DNA of 40,873 bases, from the IMG/VR virus record IMGVR_UViG_3300020392_000030, positions 1 to 40,873 of that record; one strand, given 5' to 3'. Both the position numbers and the translations under genes were made by a program. The stretch is from a virus. Positions 5,432 to 39,183 of the stretch are shown here, piece after piece; positions within the stretch are counted from its first letter, which is position 1, and each line of letters starts with the position of its first letter. The notes beneath the pieces were generated by a model. It worked only from the letters and a program-made list of their open reading frames with translations, ran no database searches and was not told the origin of the DNA.

Positions 5432-7647
<2,216 letters not shown>

Positions 7648-7649
7648 AC

Positions 7650-8879
7650 ATGCCAGACATAGCATCACATAACGGAATAGCCGTGGCAGATATAGCATCA
7701 ATAAACGGACAAGACGTCCCAAGCGGAGGGGGCGGAGTATCAGAGCCAACATCAGGGTTTTTAACTTTGGGTGGATCAATTCCAGGCAATAGCGTTCTTC
7801 GTTTTGGCGCAAACAATAACGATACCTTTGAGTCTGTTACGTTTCACTCTAGCGTTTCAAGCGTGCCAGCCACAAGCGCTATTACAAAAGTGTCTTCAGG
7901 TAGATACATGGTAGGGATGTTAGACAGCTCTGGTAATCTATACATGTCAGCCGTAGGAAATCAAGAAACAGGGTCTGCAAGTATTTACGGGGGTCACTAC
8001 AGGCAGTTTAGCATAGAGCTAACCAGTGTTGCTGATTTTTCTTTCGGAAAAGATCACGGCCTTGCAGTGAAGACGGATGGAACGCTTTGGGGGATTGGTG
8101 GTAATGGCGACGGTGAATTAGGAAGGGGTAATACAAGTTCTCAGTATTCTACCTTTGCAGAAGTCGGCGGCGGTGCAACAAACTGGTCCAAAGTTTCTTG
8201 CGGAGAAGACTTTAGCCTAGCCTTGAAAACTACAGGTGCTTTGTATAGCGCAGGTAAAAACCAAGACGGAAGAACGGGGCAAGGGACAACCAGCGGTGAC
8301 ACCACTTCCTGGACGCAAATAGGAAGCGATACAAATTGGACTCAAATTTCCACTGGTGAAAAACATTCTGCTGGTATATTATCTGGAAAGCTGATTACTT
8401 GGGGCGACGGTAGCAGTCGAAGATTAGGAAATAACAGCTACAGCGACGAAACGTCTCCGTATACCGCTAATAGCGATACAGATTGGCAAAGTGTGCATTG
8501 TGGTACTGCCTATACCAAGGCTATAAAAACTACTGATGGTCATCACTACCATGCTGGAAGTGGTGGTGCCTTTGGCAGCGGGACTCGTGGCGACGGCTCT
8601 ACAAGCAGCACTACCACTTTTACAAGAATAGGGTCAGACACAGGTTGGACAGAGTTTCTTGAATTTAAATATTCTTCTTTTTCTAATTACGCCGCTGGCA
8701 AAAAAAGCGGGAGCTGGTATGTTTGTGGTAATTATCAACTTGCCCCATATATCAAAACTGGGGGAACAGCTACGGAAAGCAACACTACTACGTTTGTGCA
8801 GTTAGCCTCCCCTAGTCCGTCTTTCTTTTCGTTAGCTCAATACAGTGGGGCTCAACCTGAAGCACTTTATATCGTTTAA
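7650..8879 (+). CDS. RCC1-like beta-propeller phage surface protein
   Basis: A 409-residue protein with several RCC1/BLIP-II-type propeller blades. Repeated units read HGLAVKTDGTLWGIGGNGDG (about residues 136-155), FSLALKTTGALYSAGKN (188-204), HSAGILSGKLITWGDG (239-254) and YTKAIKTTDG...AGSGG (from 287), with divergent blades on either side. The N-terminus repeats an IAS-NG motif (DIASHNG, DIASING), a pattern common at the start of phage tail fibre proteins. RCC1-type propellers mediate protein binding, so a receptor-binding or fibre-tip role is plausible, supported by the collagen-like fibre gene ending two bases upstream. The start ATG 7650 follows that stop directly. Confidence 0.78.
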   Translation: MPDIASHNGIAVADIASINGQDVPSGGGGVSEPTSGFLTLGGSIPGNSVLRFGANNNDTFESVTFHSSVSSVPATSAITKVSSGRYMVGMLDSSGNLYMSAVGNQETGSASIYGGHYRQFSIELTSVADFSFGKDHGLAVKTDGTLWGIGGNGDGELGRGNTSSQYSTFAEVGGGATNWSKVSCGEDFSLALKTTGALYSAGKNQDGRTGQGTTSGDTTSWTQIGSDTNWTQISTGEKHSAGILSGKLITWGDGSSRRLGNNSYSDETSPYTANSDTDWQSVHCGTAYTKAIKTTDGHHYHAGSGGAFGSGTRGDGSTSSTTTFTRIGSDTGWTEFLEFKYSSFSNYAAGKKSGSWYVCGNYQLAPYIKTGGTATESNTTTFVQLASPSPSFFSLAQYSGAQPEALYIV

Positions 8880-31900: not shown

Positions 31901-34154
31901 CCCATCTAGGTCGAGTCAAGGGGGTGTCCCAGACCAGCTTCGCAAAGCGTCTGGACGTAGTGATGAGACGGGTAGCATCTTAGCCAAAACCATAGATCAA
32001 AACACACAGATACACGTCGCAGGTCAAAAGAACGTAGCCCTCCAAGGCCTCTACGAACTTCTCCGTTCTAATCCCAGCCCTGAGCACTACACTGTTTCTG
32101 ATGACGGAAACTCTTTGGCTAGCAATACCGTAATGGTTTATCTCAACGGCCAAAAGAAGTACATCACATTTGCAAACGAATCATACGCCAAGCCATTCAA
32201 AACGACAGGACCAAGTGACAATCAGTTCTATGTAAAGGTTGTACAGCCTGCTCAACGTCTGTTTAGCTTGGTTCCAAAGATGTACACTCAATACTCTACT
32301 ACATTTTTCGCTGGCAACGCGCCCCGTGATTATCAAGCATCGATTAATAATGCGCTAAGTGCTGCTGAAAAAGAGTTTGGATACGCGCTGTACAACGCTG
32401 ATGGCAATCCGTTAAATATTAAACAGCTTGTTTCGGACTCTCATCTTGTCGGACGTGGTGAATACGCAAGGGCGTTTAAGGCTATCGCCGCAGACGAGTT
32501 TGGAACAGGCCCAGATTTACGAGGTCAAGAAAACGTATTGTACCAAGAGTTCAAGGCTCACGGAGGCAAGACTGGTTGGGCATATAGAACTCCTTTAGAG
32601 GACTTGTCAAAAGAGCTCGCCGCAGAAGTTGACGTTGCGGTAAAAGGTCAAAAGGCAACTAAGTGGCTTTATGACAATAGTTTAGGTCTTATAGAGTCCT
32701 TCAATAACACGTTTGAGAATGTGTTTAGATTTCAGGTTTACAAGGGGCTTCGCAATCAAGGTGTCAAGCCAGATTATGCTGCTGCTGTAGCGAAGGATGT
32801 GAGTATTGATTTTAACAGGTCTGGTAATACTACCCCGAAGATCAGTGCGATGAAGTTCTTCTTAAACGCAGGGCTTCAGGGTGCTGATATGACAGCGCAA
32901 ACTACCATTGCCCTCAGACCAAAGACAACCCCTGAAGGAGAGACGAGAAACCCTATTCAACGATTGACGAATGCGCAAAAGCTTTTGATTGGGAGCGTTG
33001 GATTTAGCTACATGTTGACTCAGTTTAATCAGGCTACGACCGAAGTAGATACGGACGGTGTCACTTTCTATGATAAGATACCAGACAACGTAAAGAAGAG
33101 AAACCACATCATTATGATTCCTGGAGGCCCTACGGGAGAGAGGGTACTTATACCTAAGTCGTATGGTTTTGGTGCCTTCAACGACTTGGGTGTCATGGTT
33201 GCTGAGGTTCAGAGCGGGGAGAGAGACGTTACCGACGCTAGCCTTTATTTTGCCTCGTCTGCAGTTGAGAATATGTCACCAGTATACTTTAGAAGTGTGG
33301 GCGCAGAAGAAGATCCAACTAAGTCTGTAGACCCTGTTCAGCAACCTGGCTTGGTGATGGACGCCTTGACAAGTATTGACCCTATAGCCCCCGTCATTGA
33401 CGTAGCACAGAATGTGGACGGCTTTGGGAATCCCGTATACAAAGAGGCCCGTTCAGGGGAGTCGAGGGTATCTAAGGCAACGGACTCACCTTCACTCCTG
33501 AAGGACGTAGCCACCGTTCTGAATGAGTCATGGGTCAGTGGCGGTAGCGATCAGATTAGCGGTGACTTGGACTTTAATCCTGACGCACTCAACTATCTCT
33601 TTCAGAACTACTTAGGTAGCTCGTATGTCATGTTTGGCGATGCTGCTGAAACCATACTTGAAGCATCAGCAGGCGAAGCTACCGTGGACACCTGGCCCAT
33701 CCTAAAAAAGTTCTACCAACAAGACTTTGAGTACTCTTCTTACGGAAACTATTACGACGCGAAGTCTGTAGTGGGTTCTTACCTATCGGAATTTGGAAAC
33801 ATAGAAGACCTGTTGGAAAACAAGGGGAAGCCCCTTCCTGGTCGCGATGAAAAAATTGCAGACTATGCAGCAGTAGAAACTGAACCTGGCAGTGCAAGTA
33901 AGAGATATGGCCAAGCACTGGCGATGCACGAGCTTTTCTCAGATATCGACAGAGAAATTAGACAGTTTAAGGAAGCCAAGGATTTACTGCAGGAGCAGCA
34001 AGAGGAGCTTGGATACGATATGTTTAACCTTCAAGTTGCTGACAAGTGGGCAGACCTAGAAGAAAAGATCTACAGGATAGAGCGAGCAGAGATGCAGCTC
34101 ATGGAAAAGGCCTTAAAAGAGTATTATAAGTATTACCCTAAAGTTGAAGAATAA
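28956..34154 (+). CDS. Large internal virion protein with LPD38-like domain, T7 gp16-like
   Basis: A 1732-residue protein, longer than T7 gp16 (1318), probably ejected to help DNA cross the envelope. N-terminal helix region IDDQRSQGRNDQFIGRSLQM resembles gp16-type starts. Hydrophobic stretches occur at about 367-410 (TPTMAVLIPSAAVTTV, WWVTTGLIGLEGA), 545-570 and 1343-1357 (LLIGSVGFSYMLTQF). Residues about 1095-1330 look like a large polyvalent protein-associated domain (LPD38 type): TQYSTTFFAGNAPRDYQAS, ENVFRFQVYKGLRNQGVKPD, FFLNAGLQGADMTAQ. A transglycosylase domain like that of gp16 was not seen. It ends TAATG into the holin gene. Confidence 0.72.
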   Translation: MEEEEILQFIDDQRSQGRNDQFIGRSLQMKGVSGYAEYLKKKDDTSTSASTSGEEGTDSAQATAPQPAQEAGSSDLPVVPQRDPSFNPLTGEVKPWADTPANRARLEIDPVHYDAFQKAGFTRAAQGIAPEFVTPEIEGIFSDFASQGNWWWNAVDGNVQKLSEQLANNDQYLSSNGLEYKKTNVVDPTAGASIPIIGDSYVVNLPEEQVYQNKVEAINKHLTKQIQDNVVTSMLDAMPKDVKGSDVALKYTEQYMLENYGSMLDLTGEGQVGNTPFLKFEGFGGGFRAAPNFSGYLVDRFDAASIDLVNAIYNLFGGEAKDITAMRKKAEEVRSNTLQFTESMSGSFTDGQFANGLMQLSGFISESTPTMAVLIPSAAVTTVATGGAAAPWWVTTGLIGLEGATLSTAVESARTQNHPMFKRYTKDGNTIGYEEMMMATGGDPELMGQYTESFDNTARWGHLSTVFGTDFVSAGASSLFFLRALKGAGGSANVGNNMNSWWNAHLSNLGYSIPVNSVTASTAAMAQYVSILEQSGQEYDAQDVFELGLDVALGVTPITVGVTGAGSSVSYVQTKAQIANALARDAVGRNGGNIKINQQRTRFLEMLRNSTDRNEQIYAERQLVALEEQKLSSIAADEQFYLRMNPEDYETVLNLHRDYNSKFRQLNALEDPNGDAAKAIRQDLDDIKERRQNIESLYEVDTAVKDPTMPSPDLYEPTVTGPGGDPLPLGFEPGLSKWWYVEFLDKYADVNMLQRSITESLDIENQGARVALNQDFEVLQKLAVSKAAHQVEEMINLRSQDGGLIDQLRQLQKSTDASLYDALPEVHDKNIIGLYDRWSIAKFAPERNQQVLNENVQELNALKSEVNGDMTKLPAGKRQRAKFLEEKIAARKGSGMADSDAESFLASLPDDLKQAFESVREEHRAIQQNTRDAALEYGFIDQTMYDKMQATAENYVTLTGDGMKSSDGNIALIDNSVVDQIFPSRSSQGGVPDQLRKASGRSDETGSILAKTIDQNTQIHVAGQKNVALQGLYELLRSNPSPEHYTVSDDGNSLASNTVMVYLNGQKKYITFANESYAKPFKTTGPSDNQFYVKVVQPAQRLFSLVPKMYTQYSTTFFAGNAPRDYQASINNALSAAEKEFGYALYNADGNPLNIKQLVSDSHLVGRGEYARAFKAIAADEFGTGPDLRGQENVLYQEFKAHGGKTGWAYRTPLEDLSKELAAEVDVAVKGQKATKWLYDNSLGLIESFNNTFENVFRFQVYKGLRNQGVKPDYAAAVAKDVSIDFNRSGNTTPKISAMKFFLNAGLQGADMTAQTTIALRPKTTPEGETRNPIQRLTNAQKLLIGSVGFSYMLTQFNQATTEVDTDGVTFYDKIPDNVKKRNHIIMIPGGPTGERVLIPKSYGFGAFNDLGVMVAEVQSGERDVTDASLYFASSAVENMSPVYFRSVGAEEDPTKSVDPVQQPGLVMDALTSIDPIAPVIDVAQNVDGFGNPVYKEARSGESRVSKATDSPSLLKDVATVLNESWVSGGSDQISGDLDFNPDALNYLFQNYLGSSYVMFGDAAETILEASAGEATVDTWPILKKFYQQDFEYSSYGNYYDAKSVVGSYLSEFGNIEDLLENKGKPLPGRDEKIADYAAVETEPGSASKRYGQALAMHELFSDIDREIRQFKEAKDLLQEQQEELGYDMFNLQVADKWADLEEKIYRIERAEMQLMEKALKEYYKYYPKVEE

Positions 34155-34591
34155 TGAGTAAGAAAAAGATAAAGGACACTAAGCTCGGCGCTTGGTTGTC
34201 AGAGAAAGCACCCCAAGTATTGGGTGTTGTTGGAGACTTGCTCCCAGATAGCGGGGGTTTAGGTGTTGTAAAGAACCTTATCGACAAAGATCCCGAGGTT
34301 GATTCTAAAGAAGCGCAGGCTGTCATTGACGCTGAGATTCGCTTTCAAGAGAATGTGACTGAGCGATGGAAGGCTGATATGGGCAGCGATGTGAAGTTGG
34401 CAAAGCTCATTCGTCCCGTTACTTTAATCTGCTTGATGGCCATGTTTATGATTACCATGATGATTGATAGCATGGACAACATCGCATTTAATGTAAAGGA
34501 CTCCTATGTCTCTTTGCTTGAGCTGTTGATGCTAACTGCATTTGGTGCATACTTTGCTGGCAGAACAATAGAAAAAAAGGGGAAGAAATGA
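34154..34591 (+). CDS. Holin
   Basis: A 145-residue inner-membrane protein that would permeabilise the membrane at lysis. The N-terminal part is charged, with a helix ending QENVTERWKADMGSD, and is followed by two transmembrane segments at about 86-104 (IRPVTLICLMAMFMITMMI) and 118-136 (YVSLLELLMLTAFGAYFAG), then a basic tail (KKGKK). The ERWKADM...RP-[T]LI layout is the pattern of a known phage holin family of Bacteroidetes phages from memory. The start overlaps the internal protein as TAATG, and the end overlaps the next gene as ATGA (34588-34591), so it leads a lysis-type cassette. No neighbouring endolysin was found. Confidence 0.82.
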   Translation: MSKKKIKDTKLGAWLSEKAPQVLGVVGDLLPDSGGLGVVKNLIDKDPEVDSKEAQAVIDAEIRFQENVTERWKADMGSDVKLAKLIRPVTLICLMAMFMITMMIDSMDNIAFNVKDSYVSLLELLMLTAFGAYFAGRTIEKKGKK

Positions 34592-36651
34592 GGTTGTTGT
34601 TGTTTTTACTGTTTCCCCTGTGTGCCTTTGCTCAACCTAGTTGGGTAAACGTCACCATACTTAGCGATCTATACAGCGGAGAAACTACATGGGAGATATA
34701 CAATGGCCCACAAGCTGTGGCTCAGTCCTCTATCCCCTACCAAAGCAACAATCTATCTAACGAGATGGTGTATCTACCATCTGGCGATTACGAGTTTGTG
34801 ATCTATGACGCTTTCGGAGATGGCATTTGCTGTGAGTTTGGAGAGGGCTGGTTCGCCCTTAGCAACACATGCGGGGTTGACACGGCGGTGTTTGATTTCA
34901 ACAGTGATCAGTTAACAATTCCCTTTGTCCTTGAGCCCTGTGAGCCGCTGATACCTGGCTGCATGGATGAGTCAGCAAACAACTACAACCCTTGGGCTAG
35001 CGTAGACAACGGAAGCTGCAATGTAAGTGAGTGTCCAGATGGTGAGGCGTTTGTATCTATGGAGCTTACGCTAGACAACTGGCCCAACGAGACTGGTTTT
35101 ACACTTGTTGATTTAGCTGTGGGTCAGTTCTATGAACAGGTGCTGCCAGGACAGTTTAACTTTGGAGATCAGCTTGCTACATATACTTATGATTTCTGTG
35201 TAGCCCTTGGATTCGAGCTGATACTTACAGATACATACGGGGACGGACTGAACGGTTCTATGAGTGGGGGGTCTGATGGTGGTGTAGTTATTACAGCGTG
35301 TGGAGATGAGGTGGTCTGGGAGCTAGAGGATCTAGCCTATTCTGACAACGACGGTATGGTTCATTACTCTGGGGCTGTGTTTGTAGAACCATGCGAAGCC
35401 GACAGTGTAATAGTAGGCTGCATGGATGACGACTACGTGGACTACAACCCAGAAGCTACTGATCCAGCAGACTGCTTGACATTGCACACTTGGGGCTGCA
35501 TGGATTCTACATCATTTAACTATGATGTGAACGCTACAATCTCTGATCTCAATAGCCCATGTGTAACTACAATCACTCTTGAAGATGATGCGGGTGATGG
35601 CTGGGGTAATTCGCATGTGGGTGTAAAGCAGGGTGATTTGCAGTGGATATTTACGGTTGGACCAGGAGAGTTTTCTCAATCTTGGGATCTCATCCTGGAT
35701 TCTGACGAAGAGGTAGATGTATACTACTTTGAAATCGGCGGACCGCAACAGCCCCCACAGGAAACACAGTTTCAAACGCTTCATAACTCAATTATTATAA
35801 CCAACGAGGCTGGAGACACCTTGATGGTAGAGGGAGACAATCCATTTTTTGATAACGGGCAGGGTGCTCTACAGCCATTTAGCAATCCCGAGTGGAACAT
35901 CTATCACTTCGTGCCGTACTGTGGCAATAGCTGCCTCCCGTATGTTTATGGATGCCTTGATATAGAGGCGCAGAACTACAGCGAAGAAGCGAATGCTGAT
36001 GATGGTAGTTGTTACTACGCGGCGGGCTGCACGCAGCCTGGATACTTGGAGTATTACAATCAAGGCTATGAAGCAGACTTTGATGATGGGAGCTGTGAGA
36101 TAATGGCTGTATTTGGATGCATGGATGTTACAGCATTGAACTACGATCCCGAAGCCAATGTAGACATCGGCACTTGTATTGAAGCAGTGGTTGACTGTAT
36201 GGACCCTAACGCATTCAATTACAATGAGTTAGCAAACATATCAAATGAAGACGCCTGCTTGTATGATGCGGGTTGTATCACAGGTCCAGGCAATCCATAC
36301 TGGCTGAATGATGGCTGCTATGCTTGGATCATTGATGTTGATCCTTACTGCTGTGATGTAGCTTGGGATGAGGCGTGTGCCGAGCTCTACGCATATTGTG
36401 AGCAGGGGTGGCCTCAAAACATTGAAGAGCCCACGCGATACATCGATGCGTATCCAAACCCAACAAGCTCGTTGTTAAATATTAGTGCGCCTATCGGCTC
36501 TGTCACTACGGTATACAACAGCTTAGGGCAAATAGTCATCAATGAAACGAGAGAAACTATTTTAGATTTTACTGCTCTCCCCAAAGGCGTCTACAATGTA
36601 TTGATACGCTATGAACACATCGTTGTTAATAAATCGATCATAAGCCAATGA
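34588..36651 (+). CDS. Phage-encoded T9SS-targeted secreted repeat protein
   Basis: A 687-residue host-type secreted protein. Residues 1-16 (MRLLLFLLFPLCAFAQ) form a clear signal peptide. The mature part has three modules with a D-x-x-GDG core (YDAFGDGICC near 73, TDTYGDGLNG near 214, DDAGDGWGNS near 333) and about seven Cys-rich repeats like GCMDxxAxNYNPxAxxDxGSC, near 124, 277, 303, 455, 480, 510 and 536, plus a CC motif (DPYCCDVAWDEAC). From about 619 a T9SS type A sorting domain follows (AYPNPTSSLLNISAP, VYNSLGQIV, LPKGVYNVLIRY, NKSIISQ). It should be exported and anchored outside the host cell. It overlaps the holin as ATGA. Confidence 0.9.
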   Translation: MRLLLFLLFPLCAFAQPSWVNVTILSDLYSGETTWEIYNGPQAVAQSSIPYQSNNLSNEMVYLPSGDYEFVIYDAFGDGICCEFGEGWFALSNTCGVDTAVFDFNSDQLTIPFVLEPCEPLIPGCMDESANNYNPWASVDNGSCNVSECPDGEAFVSMELTLDNWPNETGFTLVDLAVGQFYEQVLPGQFNFGDQLATYTYDFCVALGFELILTDTYGDGLNGSMSGGSDGGVVITACGDEVVWELEDLAYSDNDGMVHYSGAVFVEPCEADSVIVGCMDDDYVDYNPEATDPADCLTLHTWGCMDSTSFNYDVNATISDLNSPCVTTITLEDDAGDGWGNSHVGVKQGDLQWIFTVGPGEFSQSWDLILDSDEEVDVYYFEIGGPQQPPQETQFQTLHNSIIITNEAGDTLMVEGDNPFFDNGQGALQPFSNPEWNIYHFVPYCGNSCLPYVYGCLDIEAQNYSEEANADDGSCYYAAGCTQPGYLEYYNQGYEADFDDGSCEIMAVFGCMDVTALNYDPEANVDIGTCIEAVVDCMDPNAFNYNELANISNEDACLYDAGCITGPGNPYWLNDGCYAWIIDVDPYCCDVAWDEACAELYAYCEQGWPQNIEEPTRYIDAYPNPTSSLLNISAPIGSVTTVYNSLGQIVINETRETILDFTALPKGVYNVLIRYEHIVVNKSIISQ

Positions 36652-37685
36652 GACTCCTATTTGCCATACTGCTTTGTCTCTTGAGCTTCAGTACGCAAGC
36701 ACAGACGCTCAAAAAGACCTTTAAATTTGCCACGTTCTACACAGCTTTCAGCGGCGGTAACTCTGTAGCAGACGAGAGCGTATACTCTGTGATGAACGGG
36801 CTCGAAAAAGACGTTTTAGAAACGCCATTTGACTACTCGTTTACGGCAGGTGTAAGAAAGATCGCTCGTTTTGGATACGAAAACAGAGCAAATGTTTTTT
36901 ATGACGGGACAGAAAAATCATACAGCGATGCAGCAAACATCGGTAGAGTAAAAGGCTTTGAGTTTTTGTTTGAGGCGGATTGGCGTAGGCAGCAGGGCCG
37001 TAACTTCTTAGATCAAGATTATTTCTTGCGCTATGTTGCTAAGAACTGGATCGCAAAAGTAGAGTACCTGCAAGACGGCTTTGCTGATGTAGAATACTTT
37101 GAAGGTTCAGAACGCTACAGAATCAACGTCAACGACAAGTTTAGTTTCAACATCGGCCTGGCGCAAAGGATATCTGAGCCATATGGGTACGACCCATTAA
37201 GCGAGTGGCTCTTAGACGATAACAACATCCACTATACTAATCTAGCTCTTGAAGAAGGATACACGATCGAGGTTCAAGAAAACGAGTACTACGATCCAAG
37301 CGGTGAGCTCGTCGCGGACAATGCAGATGTTTGGCAGCAGATAATTATACCTGACGTGATTGGCAACTACGTCAACAGAAAAAGAAACGAACTACCTAAT
37401 CAGTGGAACTATTCGTTGGTTTTAGGTTACGACTATTACAAATACTCAAAGGACTTTTGGATGCATAGCTGGGCGAGCGTCATGCCCTATCACCTAAATA
37501 CAGGAGGGGAATACTCCTACTTTGAGACTACAAATGGCGAGCAGTGGACTGATTATAGTTTAGGCCTTATCTTTGGTTGGAGATTAAATAAAAGCTTGGG
37601 TGTTTTTTTAGAAGGCAAATACAATAGGTATTGGAATAGAGAGTGGCACGACTTTTCTGTTGGATTAAATTATGTGATACTATAA
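36648..37685 (+). CDS. Phage-encoded outer-membrane beta-barrel protein
   Basis: A 345-residue protein with signal peptide MRLLFAILLCLLSFSTQAQ, followed by repeated amphipathic strands (EFLFEADWRRQQG, WIAKVEYLQDGFADVEYF, QWNYSLVLGYDYYKYSKD) and an aromatic C-terminal end (DFSVGLNYVIL), the typical barrel-assembly signal. A C-terminal LGVFLEGKYNRYWNREWH segment resembles barrels of marine Bacteroidetes. It overlaps the T9SS-targeted gene by 4 bases (ATGA), so the two are probably co-translated and may function together at the outer membrane. Possible roles are blocking of superinfecting phages or outer-membrane changes at lysis; neither is shown by the sequence. Confidence 0.8.
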   Translation: MRLLFAILLCLLSFSTQAQTLKKTFKFATFYTAFSGGNSVADESVYSVMNGLEKDVLETPFDYSFTAGVRKIARFGYENRANVFYDGTEKSYSDAANIGRVKGFEFLFEADWRRQQGRNFLDQDYFLRYVAKNWIAKVEYLQDGFADVEYFEGSERYRINVNDKFSFNIGLAQRISEPYGYDPLSEWLLDDNNIHYTNLALEEGYTIEVQENEYYDPSGELVADNADVWQQIIIPDVIGNYVNRKRNELPNQWNYSLVLGYDYYKYSKDFWMHSWASVMPYHLNTGGEYSYFETTNGEQWTDYSLGLIFGWRLNKSLGVFLEGKYNRYWNREWHDFSVGLNYVIL

Positions 37686-37969
37686 TGGCAAAGCAAATCG
37701 GAGAGGATACCAAGGTAACGCTAGACCTGAAGACAATTGGGATGGCAGCGGCAGGCATTGGAACGGTAGTAGCTATGTGGTTTGCACTTCAAGCAGACAT
37801 CGCTGAAGCGAAGGAGTTGCCTGTTCCTGCTGACCCTGAAATCACACGCATGGAGTTTGATATGAAGGACCAGTTGGTTCGTCAAACCATTATGACTACC
37901 CAAGAAGACGTGCAAGAACTCAAAGAAGATCTAGATCGTATAGAGCAAAAAATCGATAAACTCAACTGA
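37685..37969 (+). CDS. Membrane-anchored coiled-coil protein, spanin-like
   Basis: A 94-residue protein with one transmembrane helix at about 18-36 (IGMAAAGIGTVVAMWFALQ) and a C-terminal coiled coil (QEDVQELKEDLDRIEQKIDK), the layout of an inner-membrane spanin or lysis accessory protein. An in-frame ATG at 37643 would add a frame overlapping the barrel gene; ATG 37685 is chosen because it forms the usual TAATG overlap with that gene's stop. The TM-plus-coiled-coil order, and the position at the end of the holin cassette, support a lysis role, but there is no lipoprotein partner (o-spanin) visible. Confidence 0.68.
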   Translation: MAKQIGEDTKVTLDLKTIGMAAAGIGTVVAMWFALQADIAEAKELPVPADPEITRMEFDMKDQLVRQTIMTTQEDVQELKEDLDRIEQKIDKLN

Positions 37970-37970
37970 T

Positions 37971-38231
37971 ATGCCATCACATTACAAAGTAAAAAAGGGC
38001 ATGGCGGGAATGTCCACCATGAACGGAAAAAAGAAAACAACGCCAGGAACAATGCCAGGAGGAGGCAAAGCACCCATGTTCATGATGGGGGGTAAAACCT
38101 ATGCCGACATGGGAGCTATGATTAAAGCGGAGGCAGGAACGCTTGTTCCAGCCCTTGCTGATAATCCCACTACGTTTGCTCAAATGGAGAAAGCCGTAGA
38201 CAAGAAGCGTAACGAGAAGAAGAGTAGCTAA
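37971..38231 (+). CDS. Small Met/Gly/Lys-rich protein
   Basis: An 86-residue protein of unknown function starting MPSHYKVKKGMAGMSTM and containing APMFMMGGKTYADMG. Its composition (Met, Gly, Lys) matches the other small proteins of the region, and the N-terminal KVKKG recalls the VLKKGG motif at 9759 and 38842. The C-terminal half is helical (FAQMEKAVDKKRNEKK). It sits one base after the spanin-like stop. No fold is predicted with confidence; it may be a virion-packaged small protein. Confidence 0.65.
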   Translation: MPSHYKVKKGMAGMSTMNGKKKTTPGTMPGGGKAPMFMMGGKTYADMGAMIKAEAGTLVPALADNPTTFAQMEKAVDKKRNEKKSS

Positions 38232-38237
38232 CAAGTA

Positions 38238-38579
38238 ATGCGAGCCCTAATCGCCGTTTGTTGCATCGCCATGTTTTTTTCGATTGGCTCTGGAATACCA
38301 GAGTCAGGCGTTTGCGTGGTTGAATTTAACGCAGGATTCAATGCAGCGAATGGTGTTGAATGGATCGAAAAGCTATCTGACTGCAAGGGCAGCCGCGTAG
38401 ACATCATGGAGAGTCCAGACCTACAGGCCAAGCACAAGATAGTTGTCGTGCCTACGGTGATTGTATTTAACGACGGAGAAGAGGTCAAGCGCTTCCAAGC
38501 CAACATCATGATGCAGCTTGAAGCCACTAAAAATGACGTGCAAGAAGCCGTTGATGAAGTTATAATGAGTGCATTCTGA
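38238..38579 (+). CDS. Secreted thioredoxin-fold protein lacking redox cysteines
   Basis: A 113-residue protein with a hydrophobic N-terminus (about 1-19) like a signal peptide or anchor, then a thioredoxin fold: strand VVEF at 27-30, active-site loop, strand RVDIM, cis-Pro loop VVVPTVIVF with P72, and a final helix. The positions of the two catalytic cysteines are Asn35 and Asn38 (NAGFNAAN), so oxidoreductase activity should be absent. Loss of both cysteines but retention of the cis-Pro loop suggests a binding role. Related cysteine-free phage proteins are recalled from flavobacterial phages, unverified. No partner is obvious. Confidence 0.68.
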   Translation: MRALIAVCCIAMFFSIGSGIPESGVCVVEFNAGFNAANGVEWIEKLSDCKGSRVDIMESPDLQAKHKIVVVPTVIVFNDGEEVKRFQANIMMQLEATKNDVQEAVDEVIMSAF

Positions 38580-38841: not shown

Positions 38842-39183
38842 ATGGGTTGCGGCTGCTCAACATACAAAGTTTTAAAGAAGGGGGGCACGTCTCGTAAGGG
38901 ACGCATGCCCAAGAAGTTCTCTGTCAAGAGCGGTGACAAGTCTCCTTCTGGTGGATTGACAGCCAAGGGTGTACGGCGATACCGTGCAGCCAATCCTGGT
39001 AGTAAGCTGAAGACTGCTGTAACTACTAAGCCGTCCAAGCTGAAGAAAGGTAGCAAAGCTGCCAAAAGAAGAAAGTCTTTCTGCGCTCGCATGAAAGGCA
39101 TGAAAAAGAGATTAACTAGCGCCAAGACAGCTAGAGATCCAAACTCTAGAATCAACAAGGCGCTTCGTAAATGGAACTGCTAA
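38842..39183 (+). CDS. Small basic DUF6321-like protein
   Basis: A 113-residue protein with N-terminal MGCGCSTYKVLKKGGTSRKG and a core SPSGGLTAKGVRRYRAANPG, then KKGSKAAKRRKSFCARMKGM and a C-terminal NKALRKWNC. The SPSGGLTAKG...RRKSFCARM pattern matches, from memory, the DUF6321 family of small proteins in tailed phages of cyanobacteria and SAR11; its function is unknown. It starts in frame-free succession, directly after the TAG of the gene before. The VLKKGG motif near the N-terminus is shared with 9759 and 9236. Confidence 0.75.
   Translation: MGCGCSTYKVLKKGGTSRKGRMPKKFSVKSGDKSPSGGLTAKGVRRYRAANPGSKLKTAVTTKPSKLKKGSKAAKRRKSFCARMKGMKKRLTSAKTARDPNSRINKALRKWNC

Follow-up and report, generated by a model that had tools for sequence, protein, structure and literature searches.

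A phage gene for a type IX secretion cargo as part of a recurring four-gene module with a possible role at the host outer membrane

Why a bacteriophage should encode a protein addressed to the type IX secretion system (T9SS) of its host, directly behind its own holin gene, is the question raised by one locus in a 40,873-base IMG/VR virus record (the whole stretch of DNA analysed here, referred to below as the window). The window is probably an incomplete genome, since the records of its relatives span 44 to 171 kb. The way in which Bacteroidetes phages pass through the outer membrane is poorly understood, and the gene in question, here called A, proves to be one of four widespread genes, A to D, that are candidates for a part in that passage. 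Gene A (34588..36651, + strand), defined by its ORF call, profile matches and relatives, encodes an acidic, Cys-rich predicted T9SS cargo of 687 aa. Its start overlaps the preceding holin gene by 4 nt (ATGA), and its end overlaps gene B by another 4 nt. The holin (34154..34591, + strand) is GTA_holin_3TM-like, with a match to the phrog_3427 holin family at E 1e-22 and a sub-threshold match to PF11351. The preliminary description had taken A for a single phage cargo gene in the operon of the holin. The overlap and the sorting-domain profiles agree with a T9SS-signalled phage protein in such an operon, but the notion of a single gene was too narrow, as A is part of a recurring module.

The product of A opens with the putative signal peptide MRLLLFLLFPLCAFA (34588..34632, + strand), read by eye as MRLLLFLLFPLCAFA/Q, and comparable hydrophobic leaders, mostly finishing in AQ, GQ or SQ, stand at the start of those relatives whose 5' end is intact. 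The exchangeable passenger that follows (34633..36441, + strand) has DxxGDG motifs in three places (residues 74, 215 and 333) together with Cys repeats, five of which fit a strict GC-x-D pattern and two more of which (GCTQ and DCMD) fit loosely. Seven, the number originally reported, is a fair count of these repeats, and on re-reading the signal peptide, repeats and motifs were all present. The composition of A is strikingly acidic, with 110 Asp or Glu residues and only 7 Lys or Arg residues, besides 30 Cys. Cys and motif positions of the passenger are invariant across relatives of 34-79% identity. No fold is assigned to the passenger, because an AlphaFold2 model of the whole protein reached a pTM of only 0.38 and its PDB matches outside the C-terminal domain came with large rmsd.

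Acidic, Cys-rich proteins with DxxGDG repeats are comparable to extracellular proteins of marine bacteria. Such features would suit a calcium-dependent scaffold or an adhesin outside the cell, which would cause cells to aggregate or attach to matter from algae or particles and so help progeny meet new hosts, its place by the lysis genes reflecting late expression only. A search of 84,980 bacterial and archaeal species genomes gave repeat-level matches to A only, and such matches in MAG genomes are a further point on this side. We nevertheless consider an adhesin improbable, as it leaves unexplained both the linkage of A to C and D and the lysis-gene context of B, C and D described below.

The C-terminal end of A (36448..36642, + strand) is a T9SS type A sorting domain. 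The preliminary description had pointed to such a domain and named TIGR04183 among the profiles that might recognize it. Two curated cut-offs were passed: residues 622-685 score 25.7 bits against TIGR04183 (cut-off 23), and PF18962 matches the C-terminus with 30.1 bits (cut-off 27), or 31.3 bits in a per-genome search. The family profile of A also matches the solved T9SS C-terminal domains (CTDs) 8glk, 8glj and 5hfs. When the AlphaFold2 model is superposed on 8glk_D, which is the CTD of NucA within a T9SS complex, the fit is 2.1 Å over 72 columns with a target TM of 0.75. Among 46 larger relative records of 44-171 kb, TIGR04183 is matched at E <= 0.001 in 45 and above its cut-off in 42. The matching gene in the relative loci is A itself; a few loci have a second CTD gene of 411-521 aa right behind A, for instance L003:10070-11635 (TIGR04183 31.2 bits), with others in L002, L004, L011 and L054. 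Elsewhere, L356:4536-8777 encodes a 1413-aa version of A that lies behind D and carries a CTD (TIGR04183 39.6 bits).

Relatives of A are encoded by 88 stretches of IMG/VR viral contigs, 80 of which were kept, making up 79 loci. One of these (L080) is a 174-aa fragment identical to A of the window, although its IMG/VR sample identifier or contig is another one. Phages that bear the module have been sampled many times over in IMG/VR, and many marine viruses of Bacteroidetes carry A. The suggestion that the gene be sought in other flavobacterial phage genomes was followed, and no cultured phage record has a relative of A by tblastn. The same method found none of B, C or D in cultured phages, also with divergent B queries, and profile searches of P2559S, P2559Y and part of an elemovirus found no module proteins. 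A chimera of phage and host DNA, named at the outset as a finding that would undo the claim, is ruled out because A is found again beside the same genes in many viral contigs that are independent of one another.

Nearly all of the 87 phage records that the portal protein of the window matches belong to Flavobacteriia, and they include phages of Flavobacterium, Cellulophaga, Tenacibaculum and Maribacter, which makes a flavobacterial host likely. None of 46 relatives, whose records may be fragments, has a phage integrase match, while 14 of 14 control genomes were positive, and this points to a lytic lifestyle for the phages that bear A. Gene B was absent from 399 genomes, a sample of the order to which a Flavobacteriales MAG belongs, in a search whose positive control worked. 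The lack of integrase matches and the absence of B from these genomes both speak against A as a prophage moron.

Across the non-redundant loci, the order of the module is ABCD in 81, BCDA in 15 and BCD with no recognised A in 20, other arrangements being few. Intergenic gaps are short, that between A and B being -4 nt in 44 of 82 cases. The 20 loci without a recognisable A suggest that A may be accessory to BCD. Some of them have a short secreted protein in its place: L323:5372-5920 and its relatives encode proteins of 169-202 aa, some with a DxxGDG motif, whose tail resembles the last half of the CTD by eye. NCBIfam leaves that tail unmatched, and these short proteins are not counted here as T9SS cargo.

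Gene B (36648..37685, + strand) encodes a predicted outer-membrane beta-barrel of 345 aa with a signal peptide, the AlphaFold2 model of which has a pLDDT of 78.4 and a pTM of 0.72. Comparison with the PDB returned weak, generic barrel matches only, and one viral model was matched at TM 0.71. NCBIfam gave no match at E <= 1, and the 66 members of the family gave no PorP/SprF match in Pfam; a PorP/SprF protein or another known outer-membrane protein was accordingly rejected as the identity of B. Gene C (37685..37969, + strand; 94 aa) has, in the alignment of its family, one N-terminal hydrophobic segment followed by a charged, heptad-like tail, read by eye as a transmembrane segment and a coiled-coil-like periplasmic part; its PHROG matches are weak. 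Gene D (38238..38579, + strand; 113 aa) combines a signal peptide with a thioredoxin-like fold that lacks CxxC, as judged from its alignment and from PF00085, which 36 of 44 family members match at E <= 0.01 (best 5e-7), the member in the window being sub-threshold. The predicted places of the four proteins are thus outside the cell for A, the outer membrane for B, the inner membrane for C and the periplasm for D. Between C and D the window has a basic ORF of 86 aa (37971..38231, + strand) that is found in few relatives (2 loci). A small basic DUF6321 protein follows at 38842-39183, relatives of which recur around the module in many loci, and far upstream an RCC1-repeat protein (7650-8879; PF13540 65 bits) lies behind a collagen-like tail fibre gene (5875-7647).

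Elsewhere the ABCD module often stands behind the terminase/portal block. This position in many relatives could be taken to mean that A is a component of the virion and its T9SS tag incidental, but nearly all relatives retain the signal peptide and the CTD, two signals that send a protein to the envelope and away from virion assembly in the cytoplasm. A place in the virion is accordingly highly improbable.

The passenger of A recombines freely, while the CTD tracks B. Distances between CTDs follow those between B proteins with a Mantel r of 0.79 in the ABCD loci (n=61) and 0.81 in the BCDA loci (n=13), whose gene order separates the CTD from B. Along A in the 61 ABCD loci, the correlation with B is about 0.8 for the last two 70-column segments, which overlap and together cover about 120 columns (560-677), 0.56 for columns 490-560 and 0.18-0.39 for the rest. 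In the 13 BCDA loci the core of A follows B as well (r 0.72), so that the whole of A correlates with B and the excess of the CTD is small. For the 31 loci with a portal gene, the CTD correlates with B at 0.76, with C at 0.67 and with the portal at 0.25. Single pairs illustrate the exchange. The window and L002 share 87% identity in the passenger, 32% in the CTD and 66% in B; L027 and L059, which differ in gene order, share 93%, 30% and 62%, respectively; and in L059 and L198 the passenger is 35% identical, the CTD 97% and B 87%. This would follow if CTD and B were partners, or else if each had to suit one and the same host, with linkage adding to the effect in ABCD. Plain gene linkage could cause the coupling in ABCD, and the BCDA group (n=13) argues modestly against it.

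A passenger swapped on a fixed chassis of CTD and B, as in the window and L002 or in L059 and L198, raises the prospect that A is a surface mask, placed late by the T9SS to block superinfection or to keep progeny from re-adsorbing to a dying host, while B would be the outer-membrane anchor dedicated to it. Exchange would fit this role because the outside part would have to match variable receptors, and it is consistent with the apparently lytic setting, to judge from the lack of integrase matches in 46 relatives, and with the acidic character of A and its conserved Cys positions. The invariance of Cys and motif positions at 34-79% identity argues instead for one shared job. We regard masking as the main and a strong rival to the lysis reading given below, though as less likely than not; A could have this role even with BCD engaged separately in lysis.

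The surroundings of the module bring lysis into view, at least in part of the family. In divergent phages, an M15 peptidase (PF08291 51.6 bits) starts <=1.5 kb after D in 42 of 51 non-redundant BCD loci, a count that is no frequency for the whole family because the C and D queries that collected the set came from phages in which the endolysin had been seen before, and the set is partly a sample of relatives. Behind this peptidase there is usually a holin relative. The ABCD loci are less uniform: a holin relative lies within 6 kb in 33 of 81 non-redundant loci (the window and 32 others), an M15 relative in 1 of 81 and neither in 47 of 81, and when an M15 endolysin is present in ABCD phages it is mostly far from the module. 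Location in a holin operon, as first described for A, is therefore true of the window, by virtue of the ATGA overlap, but not general.

Four loci show a further resemblance to lysis genes. A Pro-rich lipoprotein of 145-150 aa precedes C in L313:4583-5020 and L316:4574-5020, and also in L314 and L317; in L313 and L316 it overlaps the start of C by 32 nt, an arrangement like that of o-/i-spanin pairs. In L257/L258 it is B that has a similar lipoprotein in front of it. Apart from lipoprotein cases such as these, the neighbourhood of the module shows no enrichment of lipobox ORFs (24/140, against 27 in antisense), and the window, a partial genome, has none in its 40.9 kb. A published survey places two Croceibacter phages and one Bacteroides phage in its spanin-less group, which includes the flavobacterial P2559S/P2559Y, and suggests an outer-membrane protein as a possible o-spanin (PMC6139136). 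Elsewhere, Bacteroidetes phages are reported with unimolecular spanins only (PMC12596118). Cultured P2559Y encodes, by its endolysin, a protein that has a hydrophobic segment near its N-terminus and looks beta-strand-like towards its C-terminus (L282:22998-23621), and one of the same build lies between endolysin and terminase in the cultured elemovirus 6-9C (L283:15976-16521). By eye, both are possible spanin substitutes.

The explanation that we consider best, and to which we give about an even chance of being right, is that ABCD forms a module across the envelope that acts late, at the step in which lysis or egress involves the outer membrane, and of which A would be the variable outside part. 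The host T9SS would export A by way of the CTD, and B would retain it as a variable extracellular part; B itself would be the partner in the outer membrane, where a lipoprotein usually serves as o-spanin, C would be an inner-membrane, i-spanin-like component, and D would serve as periplasmic link or chaperone. Together they would act in outer-membrane disruption or virion release, and the position of the genes suggests late expression. The module is a candidate for outer-membrane breakage because it is often sited with phage cell-lysis genes, and synteny, predicted compartments, M15 and holin linkage, the spanin-like pairs of L313, L314, L316 and L317, the absence of integrase matches and the tracking of B by the CTD all argue for this reading. 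It is weakened by the distance of M15 genes from ABCD, by the 47 of 81 loci with neither holin nor M15 and by the 20 BCD loci without A. Of the roles first proposed, genome context favours a lysis aid, now applied to the module as a whole; masking or exclusion would also agree with a passenger that is exchanged. A bolder form, which we hold to be doubtful, is that marine Bacteroidetes phages break the outer membrane by a new trans-envelope system, with barrel B and coiled coil C linked by D and an external arm A that is delivered by the host T9SS and exchanged like a cassette. If the module does act in lysis or egress, the use of host type IX secretion would belong to the regular life cycle of the phage and would be more than the work of an occasional moron.

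How does the module compare with known systems? With T9SS type A cargo (TIGR04183 / PF18962), A shares a putative signal peptide, a CTD over the curated cut-offs and the CTD fold of NucA (8glk_D). Unlike such cargo, A comes from lytic-looking phages and is coupled to a phage outer-membrane barrel, and its passenger family is confined to viral contigs among the genomes searched here. In SprB/SprF-type pairs, a T9SS cargo gene is followed by the gene for a dedicated outer-membrane barrel. A and B have the same arrangement, but B matches neither PorP/SprF nor any other Pfam or NCBIfam model, and the CTD of A is of type A.

Phage T9SS cargo as such has precedents, while the conserved module appears to be new, no description of ABCD having been found in the open-licence literature, a search outside which most subscription journals lie. 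Cryophage genomes encode T9SS type A cargo with endoglucanase, GH39 and PA14 domains (PMC7468147). This cargo is, like A, phage-encoded and varies between phage variants, but the parts of that report available to us describe no conserved B-C-D module. BACON gut-phage cluster 2 likewise has phage proteins with a T9SS sorting domain; in the parts of the source consulted, these differ from A in lying upstream of head genes, in having BACON domains and in having no such module (PMC6949934). Two-component Rz/Rz1 spanins (PMC6139136) offer a parallel to the proposed role, as C, read by eye, may have the topology of an i-spanin and is paired with a Pro-rich lipoprotein in L313, L314, L316 and L317, and the module is often found beside endolysin and holin. 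It departs from them in having an outer-membrane barrel that replaces the lipoprotein or stands besides it, and in the extra exported proteins A and D.
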